From positions 1 through 36,047 of the forward strand of contig MGDT01000002.1 of NCBI GenBank assembly GCA_001791045.1: DNA of 36,047 bases, read 5' to 3'. Numbering within the stretch: the first letter of the stretch is position 1; each line of letters opens with the position of its first letter. A model generated the notes under the pieces. The model did no database searches. It had not been told where the DNA came from and saw only the letters and a program-made list of their open reading frames with translations. Both the position numbers and the translations under genes were made by a program. The stretch is from Candidatus Uhrbacteria bacterium RIFCSPHIGHO2_01_FULL_63_20. Its GTDB lineage: Bacteria; Patescibacteriota; Patescibacteriia; UBA9934; GWF2-40-263. Below are positions 24,083-36,047 of the stretch, piece by piece.

Positions 24083-24544
24083 TTAAAAAGGGATGTCTTC
24101 GACCTTGATTTCGTCATCGGGATTCGGGGCCGGGTCGTCCTTCGGCTTGGGTGGAGCCGCGAACGGCTTCCCCCCTTCGCTGAAGCTTCGGGGGGCTGCG
24201 GCGCCACCAGAGCCCGCTCGGTCCAGGATGATCACGTTGTCGGCGATGATCTCGGTGGTGCGGCGCTTTTGCCCGTCCTGCCCTTCCCATTCGCGGGTCT
24301 GCAAGCGCCCTTCCACGTACACCTTGCGGCCCTTGGCGAGGTAGGAGCCGCAGATCTCGGCGAGCTTGGCCCAGGCCACGCAGTTGTGGAACTCGGCCGC
24401 CTCCTGCTTGGCGCCGGCGGCGTCGGTCCAGGTGCGGTTGGTGGCGACGCCGAAGGAGCACACGCTCTGGCCCGACGCGGTCTGGCGCAGTTCCGGGTCG
24501 CGGGTGACGTTGCCCAGGATCGTGGCGCGGTTCAAGGAGTACAT
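24083..24544 (-). CDS. ssb: Single-stranded DNA-binding protein
   Basis: MYSLNRATILGNVTRDPELRQTASGQSVCSFGVATNRTW..; C-terminal DDEIKVEDIPF. Confidence 0.97.
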   Translation of the reverse strand: MYSLNRATILGNVTRDPELRQTASGQSVCSFGVATNRTWTDAAGAKQEAAEFHNCVAWAKLAEICGSYLAKGRKVYVEGRLQTREWEGQDGQKRRTTEIIADNVIILDRAGSGGAAAPRSFSEGGKPFAAPPKPKDDPAPNPDDEIKVEDIPF

Positions 24545-24545
24545 A

Positions 24546-25055
24546 CTAGATCCCCTTGGTCACGTCCGTGTCCAGGATCTCGTCGAGCTTCTTGTCGAGC
24601 TCCTCGATGGACATGGCCGGTTCGCCGACCTTCACCGCGGCAGGAGCGGCGGAAAGAACCGGAGCGGGGGCGCGCGAGGGGGCGGGGCGGCGGTCGGCGC
24701 GTTCCTCGCGGGCTTCCTCGGAAAGCGGAGCGACGTAGGCCGTGAGCTCCGCCTTCTTCTTCTCATCCCCGGGCTTGGCCGAAAGGATGGTGTGGCGCAG
24801 CACTTCGTCGCACAGCGAGAGGGCGCGATCAAGCGCGGCCATCGCGGCGGGCTCGGCCTCGAAGAAGGTGAGCACGTAGGTGCCGTAGCGCGACCCCTTG
24901 ATAGGGTACGCGAGCTTGAGGCGGCCAAGCACGGTGGTCTTCACGATGCTCCCACCCGCTCGCTCGACCATCCCGGTCACGGTCTTCGCCACGCCTTCTA
25001 TCTCGTTCTCGGCGTAGCGGCTCGGGATGATATAGAGGAATTCGTACATCTTCAT
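24546..25055 (-). CDS. rpsF: 30S ribosomal protein bS6
   Basis: MKMYEFLYIIPSRYAENEIEGVAKTV..LGRLKLAYPIKGSRYGTYVLTFFEAEPAAMAALDRALSL. Confidence 0.93.
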   Translation of the reverse strand: MKMYEFLYIIPSRYAENEIEGVAKTVTGMVERAGGSIVKTTVLGRLKLAYPIKGSRYGTYVLTFFEAEPAAMAALDRALSLCDEVLRHTILSAKPGDEKKKAELTAYVAPLSEEAREERADRRPAPSRAPAPVLSAAPAAVKVGEPAMSIEELDKKLDEILDTDVTKGI

Positions 25056-25066
25056 ACATCTGGCCC

Positions 25067-25094
25067 CCGAAGGAGCAGCCCCGGAGGGCTTCGG
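25067..25094 (-). promoter_or_regulatory. Candidate S6:S18-binding leader hairpin of rpsF operon
   Basis: CCGAAG-(GCCC tccg GGGC)-tgctc-CUUCGG type structure in the rpsF 5' UTR. Confidence 0.5.
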
Positions 25095-25117
25095 ACAGAT
25101 TAAGAATAATCGCGGGC

Positions 25118-25146
25118 ATCGTAGCGGACGCTCGCGATTCGGTCAA
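25118..25146 (-). promoter_or_regulatory. Promoter of rpsF-ssb-rpsR-epmA-efp operon
   Basis: TTGACC (25141-25146), 17 bp, TACGAT (25118-25123). Confidence 0.75.
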
Positions 25147-25150
25147 CCCT

Positions 25151-26086
25151 CTAGCGTACGACCACCCACCCCTCCCCTTCCTTCTTCAGCCGATACGGGG
25201 CGCTCTCCCCGCCGTTGCCGACGATCACGTCCACCGTCGCCTTGGGAGCATCCGTCTTCACCTCGAGGAGGTCGAGTTCCTGGTCGGAGAGGTCGCCCGG
25301 GCTCCAGATGCCGCGACTCGCGCGCGCGTCGGCGTCCACGGCGTAGATGAGCGCGTTATGCATGGCCGCGTCGAACGGGACGTAGATCGGGAAGGCGTTC
25401 ACGCGCGAGCGGTCCGCCCCGAGGACGCGCGACGAGAACCGCACGCGCAGGGCGCGCGCGAGCGCGGGGTGGGTGAGACGCATCCCCGCCGCGGCGTCGA
25501 TGTCGGAGAAGGCGAATCTCCCGGCCTCGTCGGTCCGCACGGCCGTGTCCCCCGCGGCAAGGTCCACGCCCGCGACCGGCACGGAGGAGATCGGATCCAC
25601 CACGGCCCCGGAAAGCGACAGGCGCACCGGACGCGCCGCGGGGCGCTCCGGGAAGAACCGGTCGAACGCCCCCACGCTCTGGTTCACGAGCACGCCGGCG
25701 AAGAAGGAGATCGCGAGCGCCGCGAGGCACGCGGCCATGGCGTTGCGTCCGTGCCGATGGCGCTTGCGCTCCGCCCGGTCCGCCTTCACCCCGAGACGCA
25801 CGCCGTTCACGGCGAGCAGGACGATGACGGTGAGGAACACGAACATGGACAGCGCGAACGCGGGCGGCACGACCGCGTCGGCGCGAGAGACGAACAGCCC
25901 GCCGCTCATGAGGCTCCGGACCTCCTCTGTTTCCCGATCCACGTACAGGAGCGCGTCGGAGCGCGTGCCGTCTTCCCCGACCACGGTGATCGTGTGCATC
26001 CCCGATGGCACGTCCGAGACGACCTGCGCGGACCATTCCCCGCTCTCGTCGGCCGTGGCTTGCGTGACCCATTCTTGTTCTGGCAT
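25151..26086 (-). CDS. Membrane protein with truncated N-terminal Ig-like fold; probable 3' continuation of the 26090-28534 gene
   Basis: MPEQEWVTQATADESGEWSAQVVSDVPSGMHTITVVGEDG then two TM segments (ALSMFVFLTVIVLLAVNGV; AACLAALAISFFAGVLV); in frame with the upstream ORF across a TAG. Confidence 0.75.
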   Translation of the reverse strand: MPEQEWVTQATADESGEWSAQVVSDVPSGMHTITVVGEDGTRSDALLYVDRETEEVRSLMSGGLFVSRADAVVPPAFALSMFVFLTVIVLLAVNGVRLGVKADRAERKRHRHGRNAMAACLAALAISFFAGVLVNQSVGAFDRFFPERPAARPVRLSLSGAVVDPISSVPVAGVDLAAGDTAVRTDEAGRFAFSDIDAAAGMRLTHPALARALRVRFSSRVLGADRSRVNAFPIYVPFDAAMHNALIYAVDADARASRGIWSPGDLSDQELDLLEVKTDAPKATVDVIVGNGGESAPYRLKKEGEGWVVVR

Positions 26087-26089
26087 ATC

Positions 26090-28534
26090 CTAACGGATGA
26101 TGATGGTGACGATGGATCCCGCCCGGGCGGTGCCGCGAAGCGCATAGCCGCCGAGGATGCGTTCGATGGTGCCGATGCGTGCGGGAGGCGCGAGAACGGT
26201 GATGCCGCTCGGGGCGGTGGGTGCCGCAACGGGACGCGTGACGGGCGCGGGAACCGGGACGTAGATGACGCTGGAAGGTGGTAGGGGGTAGGTGGTAGGG
26301 GGTAGGGTCGGGACGGCGGGACACGACAGCGTGGGGGCCGGGGGGCATGCCGGCACGGACGCGGCGTCCGGACAGGATTCGAACACGACGCTCGGCCGGG
26401 TGGCGAGACGCACCTCGGGGCCCGTGAACGACGCGCCGGTACGGTCGCGGTTGACCGGGAGGAACCGATAGAGGATGCCGCTTACGAGCCCGTCGATCAC
26501 CACTGAATGGTAGGTGCGGAACGTGCCGTCGGACTCGGTGGACGCGGCGTACCCGTAGTTCGGTTCGCTCCCGAGATACAAGGGCGACTGGTCGCCGTAC
26601 GCGACGCGGCCGGTGGCGTCCTGGCTTGAGCGCCAGGCGACGAGCACGGAATCCTCGTCGATCTGGGTCGCGCGCAGGTCATCGATGGTCCGCCCCGGCA
26701 GGATGATTGGGCCTCCCCCTCCGCTGCCACCGCCTCCTCCTCCCGGCGTCTCGACAACGGCGGCGTACACCTCCTGCGGCATCAGGTTGCCGTCGAGGTC
26801 GGCGGCGTACACGAGCACGGGCACCGCCTCGCCGGCGGAAAAGTCCGCGGCCGGGTCTATGGTAAAGGTGTAATCGGCGGGAGAGCCGGTGACGTCGGTC
26901 GTATCGCCCACGTAGTTGCCGCCGTTGAAATCAAGCGAGCTCCCGAAACTGATGTCCGTCCCGGTGGTGGTGACGCTCCCCGCGCCGCCCCCGTCGGTAT
27001 AGAAGGTGCCGTCCACGAAGATGACCACGCTGCCCAGGTCCACGCCGGAGCCGTTGTCCTCCACGTGCAGCACGAAGGTCGCGTCCGCCGCGATCTCGTC
27101 GTCATCCCCCGGCACCGCCCCGGAAACGAACGGCGGGTCCGAGTCGGCGGTCGTGAACGTCCAGGTGTCGGTCACGATTACGTTGGTCGCCATGTCCTCG
27201 CAGTCGAACGCGCTCACGGTGACCGTCTCGTCCTGGGCGAAATCCGACGCAGGATCGATCTCGTACTCGAATCCGTAGTCCGCGGGCGTGACCGTCACCT
27301 CCGCGTCCCCTTCCTGGAAGGTGGTGAGCGCGAAACTCGGCGAGGAGACGTTGAACTTGCAGGTCGTCGAATCGACGCCCGTGCCGGAGACGGTGCCCGG
27401 GTATGTCTTCTTGTCATGGACGACCGCGGTCACGTTCGTGCTCACGGAATTCCCCGCGCTCGTCCGCGCAGGCGTCTCGGATACGACCTGCGGCGGCACC
27501 GTGTCCGCTTCGGTCGTGAAGGAAAAGGTCTTCGGGTCCATCGCATTCGGCCCGTTGGCATCCCCAAGCTGGTCCTGGGAGGCCGAGGCGAGGTCCTCGA
27601 ACCCGGAGATGTCGATGTCGTAGCCGGTGGCGTACTCCCAGTTGCGCGTGTCGCCCGAAATGCCGCTCGGCGGGGCAGGATTCACCGTGACGTTGCACAG
27701 GTTGGTCCCCCAGGTGCCGGAACAGGAATAGCTGTCAAACGCGGTGAGGCTCGAGGGTCCTCCCCCGTCGTCCGCGGTGATGGCTCCGGGAGGGGTGGCG
27801 GTGGACACGCCGGTGCCGACGCCGGAATTATCGCCCTCGCCGTTCTTGGAATCGCGCAAGTCGAACAGGTAGTTCACCGTGACGGCGACGGCGGTCGCGG
27901 CGTCCGCCGGGGACGGGTTCAGGGCATACGGCTTTTCCGTGTCGGCCCAGACGTGGAATTGGAAATCCTCCTCGTCGTCGAGGATGTCCAGGCCGCTCAA
28001 GGAGACGTTCGACTCGGTGCTGTCCCCGATCACGCCCACGTCGATGTCGAGCGTCTCGGGAGTGCCGGTGCCGTACGCGGCGGAGGTGGGCGCCACCATG
28101 GTCCAGTCCACGGTGCCGAACGTGCCGGTGCCGCTGCTCGTCCCGCTCGTACGGAACCCGGTGAGGCGCACCTGGCCGCCCGACGTGTTCTGTCCGGCGT
28201 ACGAGCTGAAGTAGCTCCCGTCCGTAAGGCTCGACGGGGTGACGTTCACCGTGTCGTGATCGATCCAGATATTGGCCGCGTCGGTGCCGCCGCTCACGAT
28301 CTCCATCGTGGCGGTGAACGTCTGGCCCACGTAGAAGTAGTTGAGGTCCGCCGCGGCCCCGGTGCCGCCGTCGCCGGTGTTGTCAGCGCCCGTGAACGGA
28401 GAGGCGAGCAGCTGGAACGTGTCCGCGCCGGAGGGGGCGGCCGCCTGGGCCGGAATCACGAAACAAAACATGACGAAGACGACCGCGATGACTCGCGACC
28501 AACCGTGTTTCATGTTTCGTGCTATATGCTGCAT
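26090..28534 (-). CDS. Secreted multidomain protein: cohesin-like N-terminal domain, Big/Ig-like repeats, Gly-rich linker, Fn3-like domain, Pro-rich segment
   Basis: Signal MKHGWSRVIAVVFVMFCFVIPAQA; VGQTFTATMEIVSGGTDAANIWIDHDTVNVTPSSLTDGSYFSS..GTGTFGTVDWTMV; PGGGGGGSGGGGP linker; start may be further 5' at 28555. Confidence 0.75.
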   Translation of the reverse strand: MQHIARNMKHGWSRVIAVVFVMFCFVIPAQAAAPSGADTFQLLASPFTGADNTGDGGTGAAADLNYFYVGQTFTATMEIVSGGTDAANIWIDHDTVNVTPSSLTDGSYFSSYAGQNTSGGQVRLTGFRTSGTSSGTGTFGTVDWTMVAPTSAAYGTGTPETLDIDVGVIGDSTESNVSLSGLDILDDEEDFQFHVWADTEKPYALNPSPADAATAVAVTVNYLFDLRDSKNGEGDNSGVGTGVSTATPPGAITADDGGGPSSLTAFDSYSCSGTWGTNLCNVTVNPAPPSGISGDTRNWEYATGYDIDISGFEDLASASQDQLGDANGPNAMDPKTFSFTTEADTVPPQVVSETPARTSAGNSVSTNVTAVVHDKKTYPGTVSGTGVDSTTCKFNVSSPSFALTTFQEGDAEVTVTPADYGFEYEIDPASDFAQDETVTVSAFDCEDMATNVIVTDTWTFTTADSDPPFVSGAVPGDDDEIAADATFVLHVEDNGSGVDLGSVVIFVDGTFYTDGGGAGSVTTTGTDISFGSSLDFNGGNYVGDTTDVTGSPADYTFTIDPAADFSAGEAVPVLVYAADLDGNLMPQEVYAAVVETPGGGGGGSGGGGPIILPGRTIDDLRATQIDEDSVLVAWRSSQDATGRVAYGDQSPLYLGSEPNYGYAASTESDGTFRTYHSVVIDGLVSGILYRFLPVNRDRTGASFTGPEVRLATRPSVVFESCPDAASVPACPPAPTLSCPAVPTLPPTTYPLPPSSVIYVPVPAPVTRPVAAPTAPSGITVLAPPARIGTIERILGGYALRGTARAGSIVTIIIR
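26277..26308. repeat. Tandem 14-bp repeat, G-rich, inside a CDS
   Basis: ggtggtagggggta x2 followed by gggtcggg. Confidence 0.85.
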
Positions 28535-28535
28535 A

Positions 28536-29201
28536 TCAATTCTCCCCTTCCTCATCCAAGTTCGAGATCATCAAGCTCAAGTCCACGCTGTTCACCACCA
28601 CGTCCTGGTTCAGGTTCGGACGCAGCCCGTTCCCCGTGAGATCGTCATCGTCGAGCACGGCGAGCAAGGTGGAGATGTCCACGGCGTTCACCACGTCGTC
28701 GCCTAGGGTGGCGGGGGTCGTCCCTGCCCCGTTCACGTCGCCGGCGAGCAGCACCTGGCTCCCCTTTGGCGCCGAGTTGTCCGTCTGGGTGAAGTTGAGC
28801 ACGTTGTTGCCGGACGTGAGCGTGACGTCGTCGAGCACGCGGGTGAGATGCTGGCTCCCTTTGAACCCGACGTCGTACGTGCCGGGGGTGACCACCAGGT
28901 TCGTGGTCGTCGCGAAGGTACCGTCCACGTCGGTCGTGAGCAGGCTCGAGGCCGGAATCGTCTGCAAGATCACGTCGTCGAGGTCGCTTGAGGTGCGGAT
29001 CGTGAAGTAAAAATCCGTGTCATCGTTCGTCTCCGTCGCCCCCACGCGCCCCTGCGGCATGGCCCATTGCACCGTGCCCGTGACGTCGCCTGCCACGATC
29101 GCCGAGATGGTGACGTCGAGCGCCTGGGCCGCAAACGCAAAACCCGTCCCGGCGATGAGCAGGGCGGCGACGAGCGCAGATGTCCTCCTTCCGACGCGCA
29201 T
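28536..29201 (-). CDS. Secreted protein with C-terminal dockerin-like Ca-binding repeats
   Basis: Signal MRVGRRTSALVAALLIAGTGFAFAAQA; LLAGDVNGAG..DDVVNAVDISTLLAVLD...PNLNQDVVVNSVDLSLMISNLD. Confidence 0.78.
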   Translation of the reverse strand: MRVGRRTSALVAALLIAGTGFAFAAQALDVTISAIVAGDVTGTVQWAMPQGRVGATETNDDTDFYFTIRTSSDLDDVILQTIPASSLLTTDVDGTFATTTNLVVTPGTYDVGFKGSQHLTRVLDDVTLTSGNNVLNFTQTDNSAPKGSQVLLAGDVNGAGTTPATLGDDVVNAVDISTLLAVLDDDDLTGNGLRPNLNQDVVVNSVDLSLMISNLDEEGEN

Positions 29202-29204
29202 AGG

Positions 29205-32200
29205 CTATGGGGCAGGTTCCACGGGCGGCGGTTCCACGGGCGGTTCCTCGACGGCCGGCGGCTCTTCCGCTGGCGGCTGTTCAGCGACCGGCTCCTCGGC
29301 GGGAGGCGCTTCGGGTGGCGGTTCCACGGGCGGTTCCTCGACGGCCGGCGGCTCCTCGGGCAGGACTTCCACGACGACCGGGGGATCAAAGTCCTTCCTA
29401 TACGCCTCTACGTACCAGTCGAACTCCGCGTCGGACGCGCCGCCCATGGTCTCGCGCGCCGTGAAGCCGTTCCTGTCGGCCGCCTCCACGTAGATGCCGT
29501 TGGCCGGGCCGCGCAACGTGACGAGCACGCGCACCGGAGCCGTGGTGGAGGTGATGTCGTTGAACGACGGGGCGACCTCTTCGAAGACGACCGTGGCCGT
29601 CCCGCCCGAGAGCGTGCCCGCGCCCGAGAGGGTGACCTTGTGCTCGAGGGAAAGCGGCGCGACCGTCTCAACCTTTTCGTTCTGGTAGCTCGTGATCACC
29701 ACCTTGTAGCTCCCTTCCGTGGCGAACTTGCCCGAAGCGTCCACGCTCCACGCGCCGCCAAGCCCCGCGATCGCGCCCACGTTCAGGATCTGGTTCCCCT
29801 GCATGTAGATGTTGCCGTTCATCGTGAGCGCGGTGAGGTCGCCCGAGAACGCAGAGGCCGTATTGTCCGTGCCAGCGTCCGGCCGGCTGCCGCTCCCTGG
29901 CCAGTAGCCGAGGTGCACGAAGGTAATCACCGACCCGTCCTCGGCCGCCGGCTCGAGCGCGTACCCCACGATCATCCCGGCCTCCTCTGCCTTCATCGCG
30001 TAGCCGGGGCGCGTGGCGGACACGGTGAGCGCGTCGCCCACGGCGATGTCGCCGTTCTCGAGGGATACCTTGGTGGGCACGCGGCCCGCGAGCGCGATCG
30101 GGTAGGTGTTGGCCTCCTTGGTGCCGGCCAGGAATCCGGGCTTCGTGGACACGATGCCCGCGAGACGTATGGCATCCTCGCCGCTCGCACGCTTCACGAA
30201 CTCGCTGGCCGTGTCGAACGCGACCACCTCGCCGGGGACGAGCGGTTGGGAGGACGGGAACATTTCCGCAAAGTCGTAGCTGCCCGTTCCCCAGCCAGAG
30301 GCGTTGGTGCGCATGTAGTCGTCGCCCGACCCGCCGTAATAGACGTACTTGTCGGTCTGGGCGACTCCCAGGGCCGAGGGGTACAGCTTGCCACCGACGA
30401 TGACATCGGAGGCGACGCTCATCACCCCGTCGTCGGTGATGTAGGCGACCTCGGCGTCCGCTTGGTTGCGGATGGACAGCTTGTACGTGGAGGCGTCCGT
30501 CACGTCGGTCACCAGCTTCATGGCCCGTTCCTGGGCCGCGGCCCCGTCCCAGCCCGAGCCGCGCAAGGCGAGGCCGAAGGAGTCGATGCCCGGAGTGCCG
30601 GAAGAGGCGGTGCCCGTTGGTCCCTGCTCGATGGCGTCGGCCAGATGGAAGCCGGGAGAAACGAACACCATCACCGTCCCCTGCCCCGGACCGGCCCAGT
30701 CGTCGAGCGCGTAGCCCACGATGGCTCCCGGCTGGGTGGCCTTCATGCCCACGCCGGAGGTGGAGGAGGAAGTGATCGGGTCGCCGGCCGCGATGGCGCC
30801 GTTCTCCACGTTCACCTTGGTCGGGACGCGGCCCGAGATGGCGATGGGCTGCGGGTTGGTGGCCGCATCCTTCACCGCTTCGCCCATGGTCTGCAGCGGG
30901 CTGGTGGACACGACGCCGAACAGCTTCGAGGCATACGCGGCCGAAGACTTCTCGACCACGGCGGCCTCGTAGTTGGCGGAGGAGCCCGTGGGCAGGCCCG
31001 TGGCCGGATCGAACAGCTCCTCGACGTATGCGAGCACGGTCGAACCGACCGCCACGAGGTCGCCCGCCGCTTCCGCGCCGGTCGTCTCGTACCACTCGGC
31101 CACGTCTCCTGGAGTTCCGGAACACTCCACGAACTCCGTGTTGGCCGAGGTGCCGTCCGCATTGTTCTTGCACACCCCGATGGTCGTATCACCCGCGGTG
31201 GAGATGTCGAACTGGATCTGCCCCGCCACGTCGAGCTCCTGTCCCGGCGAGGTCCCGACGCCGACGTTCCCGGTGAACACGAACGTCCCGCTGGTCCCGT
31301 TGTATCCGGTGATATTCAGCGTCGCGCTCGCGTTCCAGGCCTCGTTGCCGCTTTCGAGGTAATTGGCCCCGCCGGAGCCGCCCAGCCAGATCTTCGAGGT
31401 GCCGTCGCCGACGTAGGCGCCGTTCACACCGCTTACCGCAAGGGCCGTCGAGTTGATCTGGCCCGCCACGTCCAACTTGGCGGATGGCGTGTCATCGCCG
31501 ATGCCCACGTCGCCGCCCGTGGTCGCCGTTATCACGGGGGTTGCCGCGGAGAGTCCCGTACCGGCAACAATCTCGAAATTATCGTTCAGTCCGTCATCGA
31601 GCCCCATCGCCCAGGTGTTCGTGCCGGAGAGCGCGAACCGGACGACGGCGTCGCCGTCCGCGGCCGTATTGTTGATCGTGATGCCCTCCGAGGCGTTCGG
31701 CGAGCTGATATAAAGCATGTCTGTCACCGACGGCGATGTCGTCCCGATATAGACGTAGCCGTTGTCGTCAATGACGAAAGGGCTCGAGTCCGTGAATGAG
31801 GTCGTGTCGTTCACGCGGAACGCGAAACCCGTGCCGCCATAGGCGACGTTCAGGGCCGTTCCGGAATTCGAGGTGTTGTTATGCGCGATCCGCGCCGCAT
31901 CGTTGCTGCTGGTGAGCGTCCCGGCCCCGCCGCCGTCCGCGTCACTCACGTCGAGCACGGCTCCCGTCTCGGTGATCGTCGCTCCGGAACCAGCCGTTGC
32001 CGTACGAGACAGGTCCAGGGTGTTCCCACTCAACGTGAGCGTCCCGGCGGTGTTCGCGATGGTCTGGCGCATGCGGGCCGTATCGCCGGCAAGGGTCGCG
32101 GTGGCGGAATACGTCGTGCCGAGATCGGCCACGTCCATGAGGAACCCGTCCGTACGGGTGCCATGGTTGCTCTCGATGTACATCCCGATGCCGGTAGTCG

Positions 32201-35200
32201 TGAGGCCGTCGACGTCGAGCTTGAAGGCGGTTCCGGCCGTAATCGAATCCGCATCCACTCGCAAGGCGATGCCGGTCGTCTTCGCGGAAAGGATTTGGAG
32301 GTTTGCCGTGGGTGTCGGCTCGCCAATACCGACGTCACCGTCGGGATCGACGATGAACGGGGTGGTATCCGAATCCGTCCCGTCATCGTTCACGCGAAGA
32401 GAGGCGCCGGTCCCGGCATTCGTTGACATCAAGATGGCGCCTGAAGAACCGGACACCTCAAGCAGGGCGTCGGGGGTGGAGTCGCCCACGCCCACGCTCC
32501 CCCCGTCCGCGATGGTGAACACGACCGTGCCGTTGTCGCGGGCGAGGAAGATGGGTGAGGAGATGGCGTTGTTGTCCACGAGCAAGGCGGCGGAGGTGAA
32601 CGAGGGGGAAGCCGGTGAGCCCACCAGGTCGAAGTACCCGCCCACGCTCGCCGTGGTTCCAGACCCGCCGCGGCCGACCAGCCCCACGTTGTAGGGCGGG
32701 GAGCCGTTGGAATCCATGGCATGGAACAGCCCGCCGATGTTGAGGGAGGCGGACTGCTCGGCGGTCCCGAACACGCCTACGTTGTTGCCGGACGTCGAGA
32801 CGTTCGTCTGGCTGTACGTGCCGTAGTTGCCGCCTTCGCCGCTGCTCCCGTACCCGTTGGCCGCGCCGGTGTTCGTGCCCGCAGCCAGGTCCTGGGTCGC
32901 GAAGGCGAACGTGGAGGAGGAGCCGGTGTATCCCGCGGCCATGAGGTTGTATAACCCCTGCTGGCCGAACGAGGCGCTGCCGGCCGAGGTGGTCGAGACG
33001 CTTGCCCCGGTCTGGACGGCCGCGGAGCTCGAGAGCGTGCCGGTCACGGAAAACGCCTGCACGGCGCTCGCGAGCGAGCCGGCCTCGATGTCGACGAAAT
33101 GCTCCGGGGTGGCGTCGCCTATGCCGACGCGGTCGGCGGACGCGTCGAGGAACAGGAGGTTGGCGTTGGTGTCGCCCTCCACGCGGAAGTCCCGGTCGAG
33201 GCTGTCCTCGTTGAACACGGCGCCGGCCGTCCCGTCCGTCAGGCGGAGGAATTCGCGGCTCGTGGAGACGAAATCGTTGTATCCGAACGCCAACGGGGCG
33301 GCCACGTCCGGCGTGACCATCTGGACGGAGGTGACGGCGCCGCTTCCGAAGAAGGCTGCCGTGCCGGACGCGAAGTTGTTGATCGCCGCCGTCGTCCCGT
33401 ACGCCGCATAACGCGCCGTCACGTTCCCCGCCTGCGCCATGACCACTCCCGCGCCGGCCGTGTTCGTGTTCGTGACCACGGCGAATTGGGCGGACGCGGA
33501 GCTGGCCTCGGCTTGGAGGAGATAATCCGGGGTGTTCGTGCCTATCCCCACGAAATTGTTCGTGGCGTCGATCGAGAGCGTGTCCGAATCGAAGTTGATG
33601 CCATTCGTGCCGCCGGAGAGCGCCACGGTGGTGTCGCTTGCGAACGTCCAGGCGGCGGCGTTGCTCGTGACCGTGTCGGCCCCGGCATCGCCAAGGGTGA
33701 TATTGCCGTCCACGCCAAGGGTCCCGGCCACGTCGAGGAGGTAGTCGGGGGTGGCGTCGCCGATGCCGACGTTGGCATCGAGGATGTTCACCTCGTCGGT
33801 CGCCTGGTCGTCGAACTCGATGCGGCCGGCCGCGGCACCGAGGCCCAGCCAGTCGTCGTCGGCCGTGGCGTCGGCGAAGGCGTCGCCCGAGGTCATGGAG
33901 CCGACGGCCGTGATGTCGCCGGCACCGGCGGCACTCCAGGAAAGGGTGCCGGAGCCGTTGTTGGTGAGCACGCCCGAGGCGTTCGCCGAGGGCCAGGAAT
34001 ACGCGACGCTCTTGATGCTGTCGAGATCGCCGTCGGAGCCCACCTGGAAGTCGTCTCCGTCGCCCACGGTGAGCAGCGAGGCCGGGGTGGTGTCGCCGAT
34101 GCCGACGTTGCCGGAACTCGTGATGCGCAATCTTTCAGACTCCGCACTGGCACTGCTCGTCCTGATAGTGAAGGCGCCGGGTACTTGCGTTGATGATGCC
34201 GCGGCGTCTTGCTGTACGAGAATCCTCGCGCCATAATTGCTCGTGTTGGAAGAGGTGACGCCCGCCCACCCCATCACCCCGAGAAAATCTCCGCTCTCGG
34301 TCGTGACCAAGGAACCGACGGACGTGCCGCGTGATTTTTGCCAGTTCATGTATGCGCCGCTGGAAGCGTCATTCGCATACCCGGAAATCGTCACTTGGGC
34401 CGCGGTGCTTCCCGAACCCACTTTGGCGATATCCAAGATCGTTGACGGGCTCGCCGTCCCGATGCCGATGCGGTCGTTATCCTCGTCCACGTTGAAGGTG
34501 GTGCCGTCGATGGTGAACCCGTCCGTGCCTCCGGCCGGGACGAAGTCGATATCGCCTGTGGAGTTCACTGTCGTCGCGTTCGCGAACGTCCATGTGCCCG
34601 CGTTGCTGGTGACCGTGTCGCCCGAGGCGTCGCCAAGAGTGACGTTGCCGTCCACGCCGAGGGTGCCGGCCACGTCGAGGAGGAAATCGGGGGTGGCGTC
34701 GCCGATGCCGACGTTGCCGTTGCCGAGGATGGTCGCGAAGGTGGCCGCCGAGTCGCCGATCTGGAGGAGTTCGTCGGCTGCGCCGAGATCGTTGCTCGAG
34801 ACCAGGTTGTACGCGGAGGAGGTGGTGCCGCCGGAAGCGAGCTGCGAGGTGAAGGTGAAGGCTCCCGACTCGGTGATGCCGGAGTCGGAAAGGGTGAGGG
34901 TCGAGCCGGCGATGAAGGAGCCGTCGGTGTAGACGTTCCCTTCCGCGCCGATGGAGTCCGCCACGAACAGGTCGTCGCCGTTGGGGGCAAATCCCGTGTT
35001 CGCGAGGGTCTCGGAAGAGGCTGCGGCGCCAACGCCCAGGTCATTGGTGAGGATCACGTTCCCGGAGGTGTCGATTTGAAACAGGTCTGTCCCTGCGCTC
35101 GTCTCCACCGTCACGTAGTTGGCCGTCTGGCTGGTGTTCCCTTGCACCAGGAACTGGATCTCGTCGGTGTCCCCGTCCACCGAGAACTTGGCGAGCGAGG

Positions 35201-36047
35201 CGCCGCCGATGCCCACGTTGTCCGTGGAGGTGGTGAGGGTCACGTCGGTGCCCCCGTCGGTCCAACCGCCGGCCGCAGAGAAGCTGCCGGTCCCGTCGAT
35301 CACGCAGGTCGTATCCACCTTGAAGGCGCAGTCCCAGCCGGTGCCGATCAGGATGGCGTCGGCGGTGAGGGTGCCGGCGGTCTCGGTCTGGGTGAGGGTG
35401 CCGATATTGAGGCCACGGATCGTGTCGGTGTCGCCGGTGGCGTTGATGGTGGCGGTGAAGGCGTCGATGTCAATCACGTTGAAGCTCTCGTTGGTGGCTC
35501 CGGCCGTGGCGTCTGCGAAGCTCGGGGTGATGTCGATGCCGTTCCCCGAGGCGGCCGAGGCGGTGAACGTGAGCTGGAGGCCGTCCACCCCGTCAGTAGC
35601 GGACGTGCCGGAGTTGATGGAGAAGACGTCCGCGGTTGGAGCGGCTCCCTTGGAAATGTTCACCCCGTCCCCGGCGTCCAGCACCACGTTGAAGTCCCCT
35701 CCCGAGAGGTCGAGGTCGCCGTTGGTCACCAGGATGTCCCCGGCCGTGAGGGTCAAGGCGTCGGTGCCGTCGGCCGAGCCGGAACAAGCGAGATTCCCCG
35801 AGCCGTCGATGGAGCAGCCGGTGGAACCCGAGCCGCCCACCAGGTCGATGGTCTCCGCCGAGGCGTCGAGGAAGATGCCGTTGGCGTTGCCATCGGTCTC
35901 CACGCGGAAGTCCACGTCGGCGCTCCCGTCGTTAAACGCGATTTCGGACGCGCCGACGGCGAGCTTTGCCCCGCTCCCGAGCGTGAGGGCGGTGACGCTC
36001 GCGTTACCCAGCTGCACGGAGTTGTCCGCCGCGACGGTCGCGCCGGA
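29205..36047 (-). CDS. Giant VGIG-repeat surface/fibre-like protein, 5' end outside window
   Basis: Open frame to the window edge (V at 36017 is preceded in frame by SGATVAADNS); repeats VGIGDATPDYLLDVAGTLGVDGN(I/V)TLGDA; duplicated GRVPTKV(N/S)(V/L)ENG domain; Pro/Glu-rich C-terminus. Confidence 0.88.
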   Translation of the reverse strand, partial: SGATVAADNSVQLGNASVTALTLGSGAKLAVGASEIAFNDGSADVDFRVETDGNANGIFLDASAETIDLVGGSGSTGCSIDGSGNLACSGSADGTDALTLTAGDILVTNGDLDLSGGDFNVVLDAGDGVNISKGAAPTADVFSINSGTSATDGVDGLQLTFTASAASGNGIDITPSFADATAGATNESFNVIDIDAFTATINATGDTDTIRGLNIGTLTQTETAGTLTADAILIGTGWDCAFKVDTTCVIDGTGSFSAAGGWTDGGTDVTLTTSTDNVGIGGASLAKFSVDGDTDEIQFLVQGNTSQTANYVTVETSAGTDLFQIDTSGNVILTNDLGVGAAASSETLANTGFAPNGDDLFVADSIGAEGNVYTDGSFIAGSTLTLSDSGITESGAFTFTSQLASGGTTSSAYNLVSSNDLGAADELLQIGDSAATFATILGNGNVGIGDATPDFLLDVAGTLGVDGNVTLGDASGDTVTSNAGTWTFANATTVNSTGDIDFVPAGGTDGFTIDGTTFNVDEDNDRIGIGTASPSTILDIAKVGSGSTAAQVTISGYANDASSGAYMNWQKSRGTSVGSLVTTESGDFLGVMGWAGVTSSNTSNYGARILVQQDAAASSTQVPGAFTIRTSSASAESERLRITSSGNVGIGDTTPASLLTVGDGDDFQVGSDGDLDSIKSVAYSWPSANASGVLTNNGSGTLSWSAAGAGDITAVGSMTSGDAFADATADDDWLGLGAAAGRIEFDDQATDEVNILDANVGIGDATPDYLLDVAGTLGVDGNITLGDAGADTVTSNAAAWTFASDTTVALSGGTNGINFDSDTLSIDATNNFVGIGTNTPDYLLQAEASSASAQFAVVTNTNTAGAGVVMAQAGNVTARYAAYGTTAAINNFASGTAAFFGSGAVTSVQMVTPDVAAPLAFGYNDFVSTSREFLRLTDGTAGAVFNEDSLDRDFRVEGDTNANLLFLDASADRVGIGDATPEHFVDIEAGSLASAVQAFSVTGTLSSSAAVQTGASVSTTSAGSASFGQQGLYNLMAAGYTGSSSTFAFATQDLAAGTNTGAANGYGSSGEGGNYGTYSQTNVSTSGNNVGVFGTAEQSASLNIGGLFHAMDSNGSPPYNVGLVGRGGSGTTASVGGYFDLVGSPASPSFTSAALLVDNNAISSPIFLARDNGTVVFTIADGGSVGVGDSTPDALLEVSGSSGAILMSTNAGTGASLRVNDDGTDSDTTPFIVDPDGDVGIGEPTPTANLQILSAKTTGIALRVDADSITAGTAFKLDVDGLTTTGIGMYIESNHGTRTDGFLMDVADLGTTYSATATLAGDTARMRQTIANTAGTLTLSGNTLDLSRTATAGSGATITETGAVLDVSDADGGGAGTLTSSNDAARIAHNNTSNSGTALNVAYGGTGFAFRVNDTTSFTDSSPFVIDDNGYVYIGTTSPSVTDMLYISSPNASEGITINNTAADGDAVVRFALSGTNTWAMGLDDGLNDNFEIVAGTGLSAATPVITATTGGDVGIGDDTPSAKLDVAGQINSTALAVSGVNGAYVGDGTSKIWLGGSGGANYLESGNEAWNASATLNITGYNGTSGTFVFTGNVGVGTSPGQELDVAGQIQFDISTAGDTTIGVCKNNADGTSANTEFVECSGTPGDVAEWYETTGAEAAGDLVAVGSTVLAYVEELFDPATGLPTGSSANYEAAVVEKSSAAYASKLFGVVSTSPLQTMGEAVKDAATNPQPIAISGRVPTKVNVENGAIAAGDPITSSSTSGVGMKATQPGAIVGYALDDWAGPGQGTVMVFVSPGFHLADAIEQGPTGTASSGTPGIDSFGLALRGSGWDGAAAQERAMKLVTDVTDASTYKLSIRNQADAEVAYITDDGVMSVASDVIVGGKLYPSALGVAQTDKYVYYGGSGDDYMRTNASGWGTGSYDFAEMFPSSQPLVPGEVVAFDTASEFVKRASGEDAIRLAGIVSTKPGFLAGTKEANTYPIALAGRVPTKVSLENGDIAVGDALTVSATRPGYAMKAEEAGMIVGYALEPAAEDGSVITFVHLGYWPGSGSRPDAGTDNTASAFSGDLTALTMNGNIYMQGNQILNVGAIAGLGGAWSVDASGKFATEGSYKVVITSYQNEKVETVAPLSLEHKVTLSGAGTLSGGTATVVFEEVAPSFNDITSTTAPVRVLVTLRGPANGIYVEAADRNGFTARETMGGASDAEFDWYVEAYRKDFDPPVVVEVLPEEPPAVEEPPVEPPPEAPPAEEPVAEQPPAEEPPAVEEPPVEPPPVEPAP
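29227..29354. repeat. 38-bp exact direct repeat with 90-bp period in the Pro/Glu tail
   Basis: GGCGGTTCCACGGGCGGTTCCTCGACGGCCGGCGGCTC at 29227-29264 and 29317-29354. Confidence 0.9.

Follow-up and report, generated by a model that had tools for sequence, protein, structure and literature searches.

Ig-like folds that a second chain completes with its own strands are familiar from chaperone-usher donor-strand complementation and from the engineered split CnaB domain (SpyTag/SpyCatcher). In cellulosomes, adaptor and anchoring scaffoldins such as Acetivibrio ScaB follow a chain logic that leads from a dockerin to a cohesin and from the cohesin to an anchor. The same two modules occur outside cellulosomes in Archaeoglobus fulgidus, Clostridium perfringens and ANME archaea, in few copies, in a surface or secreted setting and without cellulases; these non-cellulosomal modules are the subject of a review (Peer 2009, as cited in PMC9012536). 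In the literature that we searched, which left subscription journals mostly outside, we found no description of a cohesin-dockerin pair in Patescibacteria, a search for cohesin in Parcubacteria was empty, and a search for split Ig domains returned only the chaperone-usher work.

The locus described here resembles the non-cellulosomal systems in all of these respects, and the folds matched by its cohesin include that of the A. fulgidus cohesin 2xdh. It differs from them in being a strict one-to-one adjacent pair with a putative split Ig membrane anchor, in the insertion carried by loop 1 of its dockerin, and in that both of its modules fall below the Pfam cut-offs. With the scaffoldins it shares the chain logic, but it has no cohesin array, no cellulose-binding module and no dockerin-borne enzymes. 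Unlike donor-strand complementation and SpyTag, the proposed anchor is a natural split of three plus four strands between an exported protein and a membrane protein encoded by adjacent genes; its N-part in the window has no lysine and therefore can contribute no isopeptide bond of the SpyTag/SpyCatcher kind. The joined domain is like the bacterial Ig domains of the Big_13 and SiiE kind in sequence and fold, whereas those are single-chain domains.

The stretch of DNA analysed (the window) is one whole contig, of 36,047 bases, from an 863-kb, 98%-complete genome, which among named organisms is closest to Candidatus Uhrbacteria and other Patescibacteria. Four genes follow one another on its minus strand, the giant VGIG-repeat gene, the dockerin-type gene, the cohesin-type gene and a second half-gene, with gaps of 3, 1 and 3 nt between them. 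The giant ORF ends at 29205, the dockerin-type gene occupies 29201-28536, and the cohesin-type gene has its ATG at 28534 and its TAG at 26092-26090. Because the window is the entire contig, the giant gene is cut off. The features are:

29205..36047, minus strand: giant VGIG-repeat, tail-fibre-like protein with a Pro/Glu-rich C-terminus; 5' end open at the contig edge; PHROG tail fibre, 2.7e-10
28536..29201, minus strand: secreted dockerin protein of 221 aa, with signal peptide, beta-rich middle and C-terminal dockerin; sole match in its genome; dN/dS 0.12
28539..28745, minus strand: dockerin module with two Ca-loop repeats (GDVNGAG...DDVVNAVD; NLNQDVVVNSVD), loop 1 with an insertion; from the A2 profile against the PDB and the ligand positions
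26090..28534, minus strand: secreted cohesin protein, with signal peptide, cohesin, and Ig-like and Fn3-like domains, ending in the first three Ig strands
27926..28435, minus strand: cohesin domain, 170 aa; AF2 pLDDT 76, pTM 0.76; fold matches in the PDB
26093..26185, minus strand: N-part of the putative split Ig domain, strands A-C (model residues 13-42); AF2 model
26090..26092, minus strand: TAG stop at the conserved split point
25151..26086, minus strand: second half-gene, encoding a half-Ig N-tail, two TM helices, a carboxypeptidase-regulatory-like domain and a C-terminal alpha+beta domain; own ATG 3 nt past the TAG
25940..26086, minus strand: C-part of the putative split Ig domain, strands D-G (model residues 47-92); AF2 and Big_13 profile
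25808..25864, minus strand: TM helix 1; the loop after it is positively charged (net +6); hydropathy
25685..25741, minus strand: TM helix 2; hydropathy
25493..25618, minus strand: carboxypeptidase-regulatory-like domain, predicted outside; PF13620 at E=8.9e-05, below cut-off

The cohesin-type protein is roughly 815 aa long and the second-half protein 311 aa. An earlier note on this DNA had placed the giant gene, the dockerin-type gene and the cohesin-type gene at the same coordinates, in the same order and with the same spacing of 3 and 1 nt, and we find all of this as it stated; its count of three genes falls short, the in-frame continuation at 26086-25151 being a fourth gene with its own ATG. 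A comparison of the two genomes of the same genus puts dN/dS at 0.12 in the dockerin gene, at 0.08 in the cohesin domain, at 0.30 in the second half as a whole and at 0.05 in the 50 codons directly behind the stop, which are thus under strong purifying selection. Because dN/dS is low and the gene order is kept in many genomes, the operon is no chance arrangement. Pfam, NCBIfam and PHROGs recognise little in the window proteins themselves, and a scan for intrinsic terminators gave no excess over shuffled sequences. Downstream, at 24083-25146, lie genes that by eye are ribosomal protein S6-like and single-strand binding protein-like, as they also do in the same-genus genome G001 and in G008, and a promoter-like site is seen at 25146-25118.

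The C-terminus of the 221-aa protein contains two repeats with calcium-loop residues at positions 1, 3, 5, 9 and 12, the arrangement of type I dockerins. Across eight relatives, positions 5, 9 and 12 are invariant in both repeats (acidic and Asn) and position 1 is D or N; loop 2 begins with Asn and loop 1 carries the inserted stretch. Searched against PF00404, the window dockerin alone gives E=0.95, below the Pfam cut-off, and the more distant relatives G074, G110, L055 and G086 score 18-27 bits against a cut-off of 22.9. The profile of the dockerin family (A2) has the CelS dockerin as its top matches in the PDB (E=0.002-0.006). From these profile matches, and from the relatives near or over the cut-off, we therefore read the module, by sequence comparison, as a divergent dockerin.

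For the cohesin domain, a prediction made from an alignment of 15 sequences (the window and its relatives) yielded a model with pLDDT 76 and pTM 0.76. Foldseek against the PDB returned 25 matches at E<=0.001, and at least 23 of these are cohesins, either archaeal or of type I, II or III, with a probability of 1.00 and TM of about 0.5-0.6; the model and its matches thus predict the nine-strand jelly-roll beta-sandwich of cohesins. Sequence similarity to the PDB is weak, the ScaB cohesin being found at E=0.23, so the case for a cohesin is carried by the fold and by intermediate sequences. Among the distant family members, G086 has two cohesins over the PF00963 cut-off (E=6e-12) and L055 matches at E=0.002. 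PF00963, the family to which the earlier note had looked, gives no match for the window protein in the Pfam search.

The whole genome contains exactly one cohesin and, even at E<=10, exactly one dockerin. Of the 16 genomes of the core family, 14 have the dockerin and cohesin genes side by side on the same strand. The exceptions are G008, where a small ORF separates them, and G643, where the dockerin gene is next door on the opposite strand. The two also adjoin in three Peregrinibacteria loci and in every distant locus with enough contig. Five contigs that, judging by their length, appear under two handles (L042 and G009, L043 and G008, L048 and G050, L051 and G094, L052 and G690) were counted once; for the remaining G and L pairs, the match was made on the length of the ORFs. 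The earlier note had supposed a cohesin fold in the N-terminal region, two dockerin-type repeats and a conserved adjacency. The fold matches bear out the first; the second is upheld by the retained calcium-loop positions and by a family profile that finds dockerins first in the PDB; and the survey of relatives finds the two genes to be neighbours wherever the contig allows a check. Each observation that the note had named as fatal to its proposal (no cohesin fold, dockerin repeats without the calcium loop, no conserved adjacency) failed to appear. A cellulosome was considered and rejected, there being one cohesin and one dockerin in the genome and no enzyme domain in the dockerin protein.

Among 384 genomes sampled from the phylum, PF00963 was found in 114, PF00404 in 150 and both in 77 (Fisher p=1.8e-13). 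From these counts we conclude that cohesin and dockerin domains, as recognised by their profiles, are common in Patescibacteria and that the family in the window is a branch that Pfam misses. Several side observations were made at the relatives' loci. The small ORF in G008 (L032:6021-6443), which lies between the dockerin gene and the fused cohesin gene, encodes an endonuclease-like protein of 140 aa. Small secreted proteins recur beside the dockerin-cohesin genes at L118:8439-10990 and L116:8391-10807, and similarly in L119, L121, L125 and L126, together with a protein that ends in a TM segment (..WVIPW..); one protein of this set matches the NCBIfam CPR-type pilus protein PamT at E=1.2e-10, below its cut-off. 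At L052:5995-8162 the cohesin gene lies in two frames (549 + 210 aa), broken in the middle of an Ig-like region, through assembly error or decay.

At the end of the cohesin gene, the window and G001 both read ...VTIIIR-TAG-GAT-ATG-PEQEW. In 13 further genomes a stop is found at the same structural point, directly past a beta-strand (...LYIY, ...FIVY, ...RLEVF), so that in 15 genomes in all the cohesin gene stops inside one Ig-like domain and a separate second gene follows. The ATG of this second gene begins 4, 6, 7, 8 or 9 nt from the first base of the stop, and its frame relative to the cohesin gene is 0 in five genomes, +1 in eight and +2 in two. By our estimate an ATG in frame within three codons of the stop is expected in ~5% of cases and is present in 15 of 15, these sequences being related. 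A tree of the cohesin proteins, scored with fused as one of the frame states, requires at least seven changes of state, of which one is a fusion and at least six are changes of frame. It has a single transition between split and fused, the fused gene of L043/G008 sitting within a group of split genes. The fusion in L043 is therefore secondary and the split state is a conserved gene split. With the second gene possessing its own start codon after the stop in three different frames, a common read-through or frameshift does not account for the arrangement. Both the giant gene and the second half-gene likewise end at an ordinary TAG stop, which shows that this codon is not read as sense in this genome. 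The arrangement is what one would expect of two genes translated separately and coupled by termination-restart. The earlier note was right to associate the TM part after the TAG with the cohesin protein; its description of that protein as extended through the TAG does not hold, given the separate ATG and the three frames among the 15 genomes. Two further explanations were rejected: a random nonsense mutation or assembly error, because another assembly of the genus has this stop too and 13 more genomes have equivalent ones; and a recoded gene, by the three frames, the start codon after every stop and the frame changes on the tree. In a distant relative outside the split clade (G639, L122:3593-6838), cohesin and second-half sequence lie in one continuous frame of 1081 aa.

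When the two halves are joined, Big_13 is matched at E=3.6e-5 over profile positions 31-85 of 102, with a score below the Pfam gathering score (24.6 vs 27); the second half alone matches at E=0.032 over positions 53-85 of 102. AF2 modelled the joined halves as a seven-strand Ig domain with pLDDT of about 90-97, in which strands A-C (residues 13-42) come from the first gene, strands D-G (47-92) from the second, and the break falls between strands C and D. The model thus predicts a single seven-strand Ig domain of the Big_13 type across the stop, and its nearest folds by Foldseek include SiiE Ig domains. Because it was built as a single chain with the TAG set to Q, it is a test of the fold and not of two-chain association.

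The cohesin protein has no anchor of its own. In all 11 of the second halves tested, an N-tail of 64-88 aa with a net negative charge precedes two TM helices; the loop that joins these is positive (net charge +4 to +10), and most of the 11 have an acidic C-terminal part. The positive-inside rule thus predicts that both the N- and the C-terminal end lie outside. The second-half protein is without a signal peptide, so that its tail of ~75 aa would have to be moved to the outside as an N-tail. In the sample of 384 genomes, strong matches to the second half were confined to genomes with this cohesin gene (5/5). In the Peregrinibacteria loci L053 and L055, the homologous cohesin protein has a dockerin of its own at its C-terminus (E=8e-5 and 3e-8). 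A cohesin domain is encoded by the gene that follows (E=5e-10 and 9e-11), whose product in L055 ends in a TM segment. A second cohesin-dockerin pair thus appears, from these profile matches, to do the same anchoring job there through a different joint, and it is the best comparative support for a chain from dockerin protein to cohesin protein to membrane. The loci as a whole (L053:5093-9999 and L055:5042-11210) encode a dockerin protein, a cohesin and dockerin protein with TSP3 repeats and a cohesin-bearing protein, an order that is like that of adaptor and anchoring scaffoldins.

In the assembly that we propose, the small dockerin protein would be exported and would bind the N-terminal cohesin of the second exported protein, perhaps in a calcium-dependent manner and with a role at the cell surface. 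The cohesin protein, ending in Ig strands A-C, would be held by the product of the next gene, a separate two-helix membrane protein whose short acidic tail would present strands D-G to the outside. Outside the cell the two chains would complete one Ig domain, by which the cohesin arm would be fixed to the membrane. Weighing against this assembly are the scores of the window's dockerin and cohesin below the Pfam cut-offs, the insertion in loop 1 of the dockerin, the Asn at position 1 of loop 2, and the passage of the ~75-aa tail across the membrane that the assembly demands of a protein lacking a signal peptide. On balance we favour the view that this Patescibacterium bears on its surface a non-cellulosomal cohesin and dockerin dedicated to each other one to one, with the cohesin arm anchored via a split Ig domain. 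Taken by itself, the proposition of a natural split Ig domain is one on which we are evenly divided: two chains from adjacent genes, one exported by its signal peptide and the other as the N-tail of a membrane protein, would rebuild one domain outside the cell as a membrane anchor for the cohesin arm, and a clade of Patescibacteria would have retained the split through at least six changes of relative frame.

Cohesins and some carbohydrate-binding modules share the jelly-roll fold, and the two domains could share folds with cohesins and dockerins without binding each other, the cohesin-like domain then being a glycan-binding or spacer module. The weak sequence similarity to PDB cohesins would allow this, but the fold matches specifically cohesins, the genome has exactly one of each module, side by side, and the two families co-occur in the phylum; we consider it improbable. 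We give still less credence to one continuous membrane-anchored protein made by stop-codon read-through or a programmed frameshift. It would provide a signal peptide for the whole outside part in a single chain, the window frame does continue past the TAG with only GAT before the ATG, and one relative has a continuous gene of 1182 aa. Against it, frames 0, +1 and +2 are all present, with no shared slippery site and always with an ATG just past the stop, at least six changes of frame are counted on the tree, and TAG ends the giant and second-half genes in the ordinary way; we regard it as very improbable.

The split may also be real and the halves not reassemble; the cohesin protein would then be set free, and the second half would be a membrane protein in its own right or one in decay. 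That the second half as a whole is less constrained than the cohesin gene is in keeping with this, whereas its half-Ig part is the most constrained stretch measured, the halves co-occur, abut and are fused in L043, and the break always falls at the same strand boundary; this alternative is, to us, unlikely, though the least so of those weighed here. More doubtful is the idea that the cohesin-dockerin complex holds the giant fibre and that the whole serves to attach the cell to a host. Many relatives have the giant gene next to the pair, upstream in G000, G001, G009 and G008 and downstream in G094, L045, L047 and others, and the surface proteins that a Saccharibacterium needs for epibiotic growth include the dockerin protein SEML1_0315 (PMC10633639). 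Yet a domain search of the giant protein found neither a dockerin or cohesin module nor any module linking it to the pair, the gene was not seen in the examined stretch of several relatives, and its counterpart in G001, an ORF of 4,306 aa, has an N-terminal hydrophobic stretch of its own.

The source organism is tiny and probably host-dependent, and by analogy with Southlakia epibionticum, in which that dockerin-domain surface protein is essential for epibiotic growth (PMC10633639), a host-contact role for dockerin proteins in the phylum is plausible. Most of the surface machinery of Patescibacteria is still without names. A dockerin protein with a defined partner, the adjacent cohesin, and an anchor makes an assembly that is directly testable. 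The pair and its anchor offer a possible explanation for dockerin proteins elsewhere in the phylum, where the two families co-occur strongly. The two-chain Ig anchor, if true, would clearly illustrate how selection can keep a protein split and would give protein engineering a useful new part.
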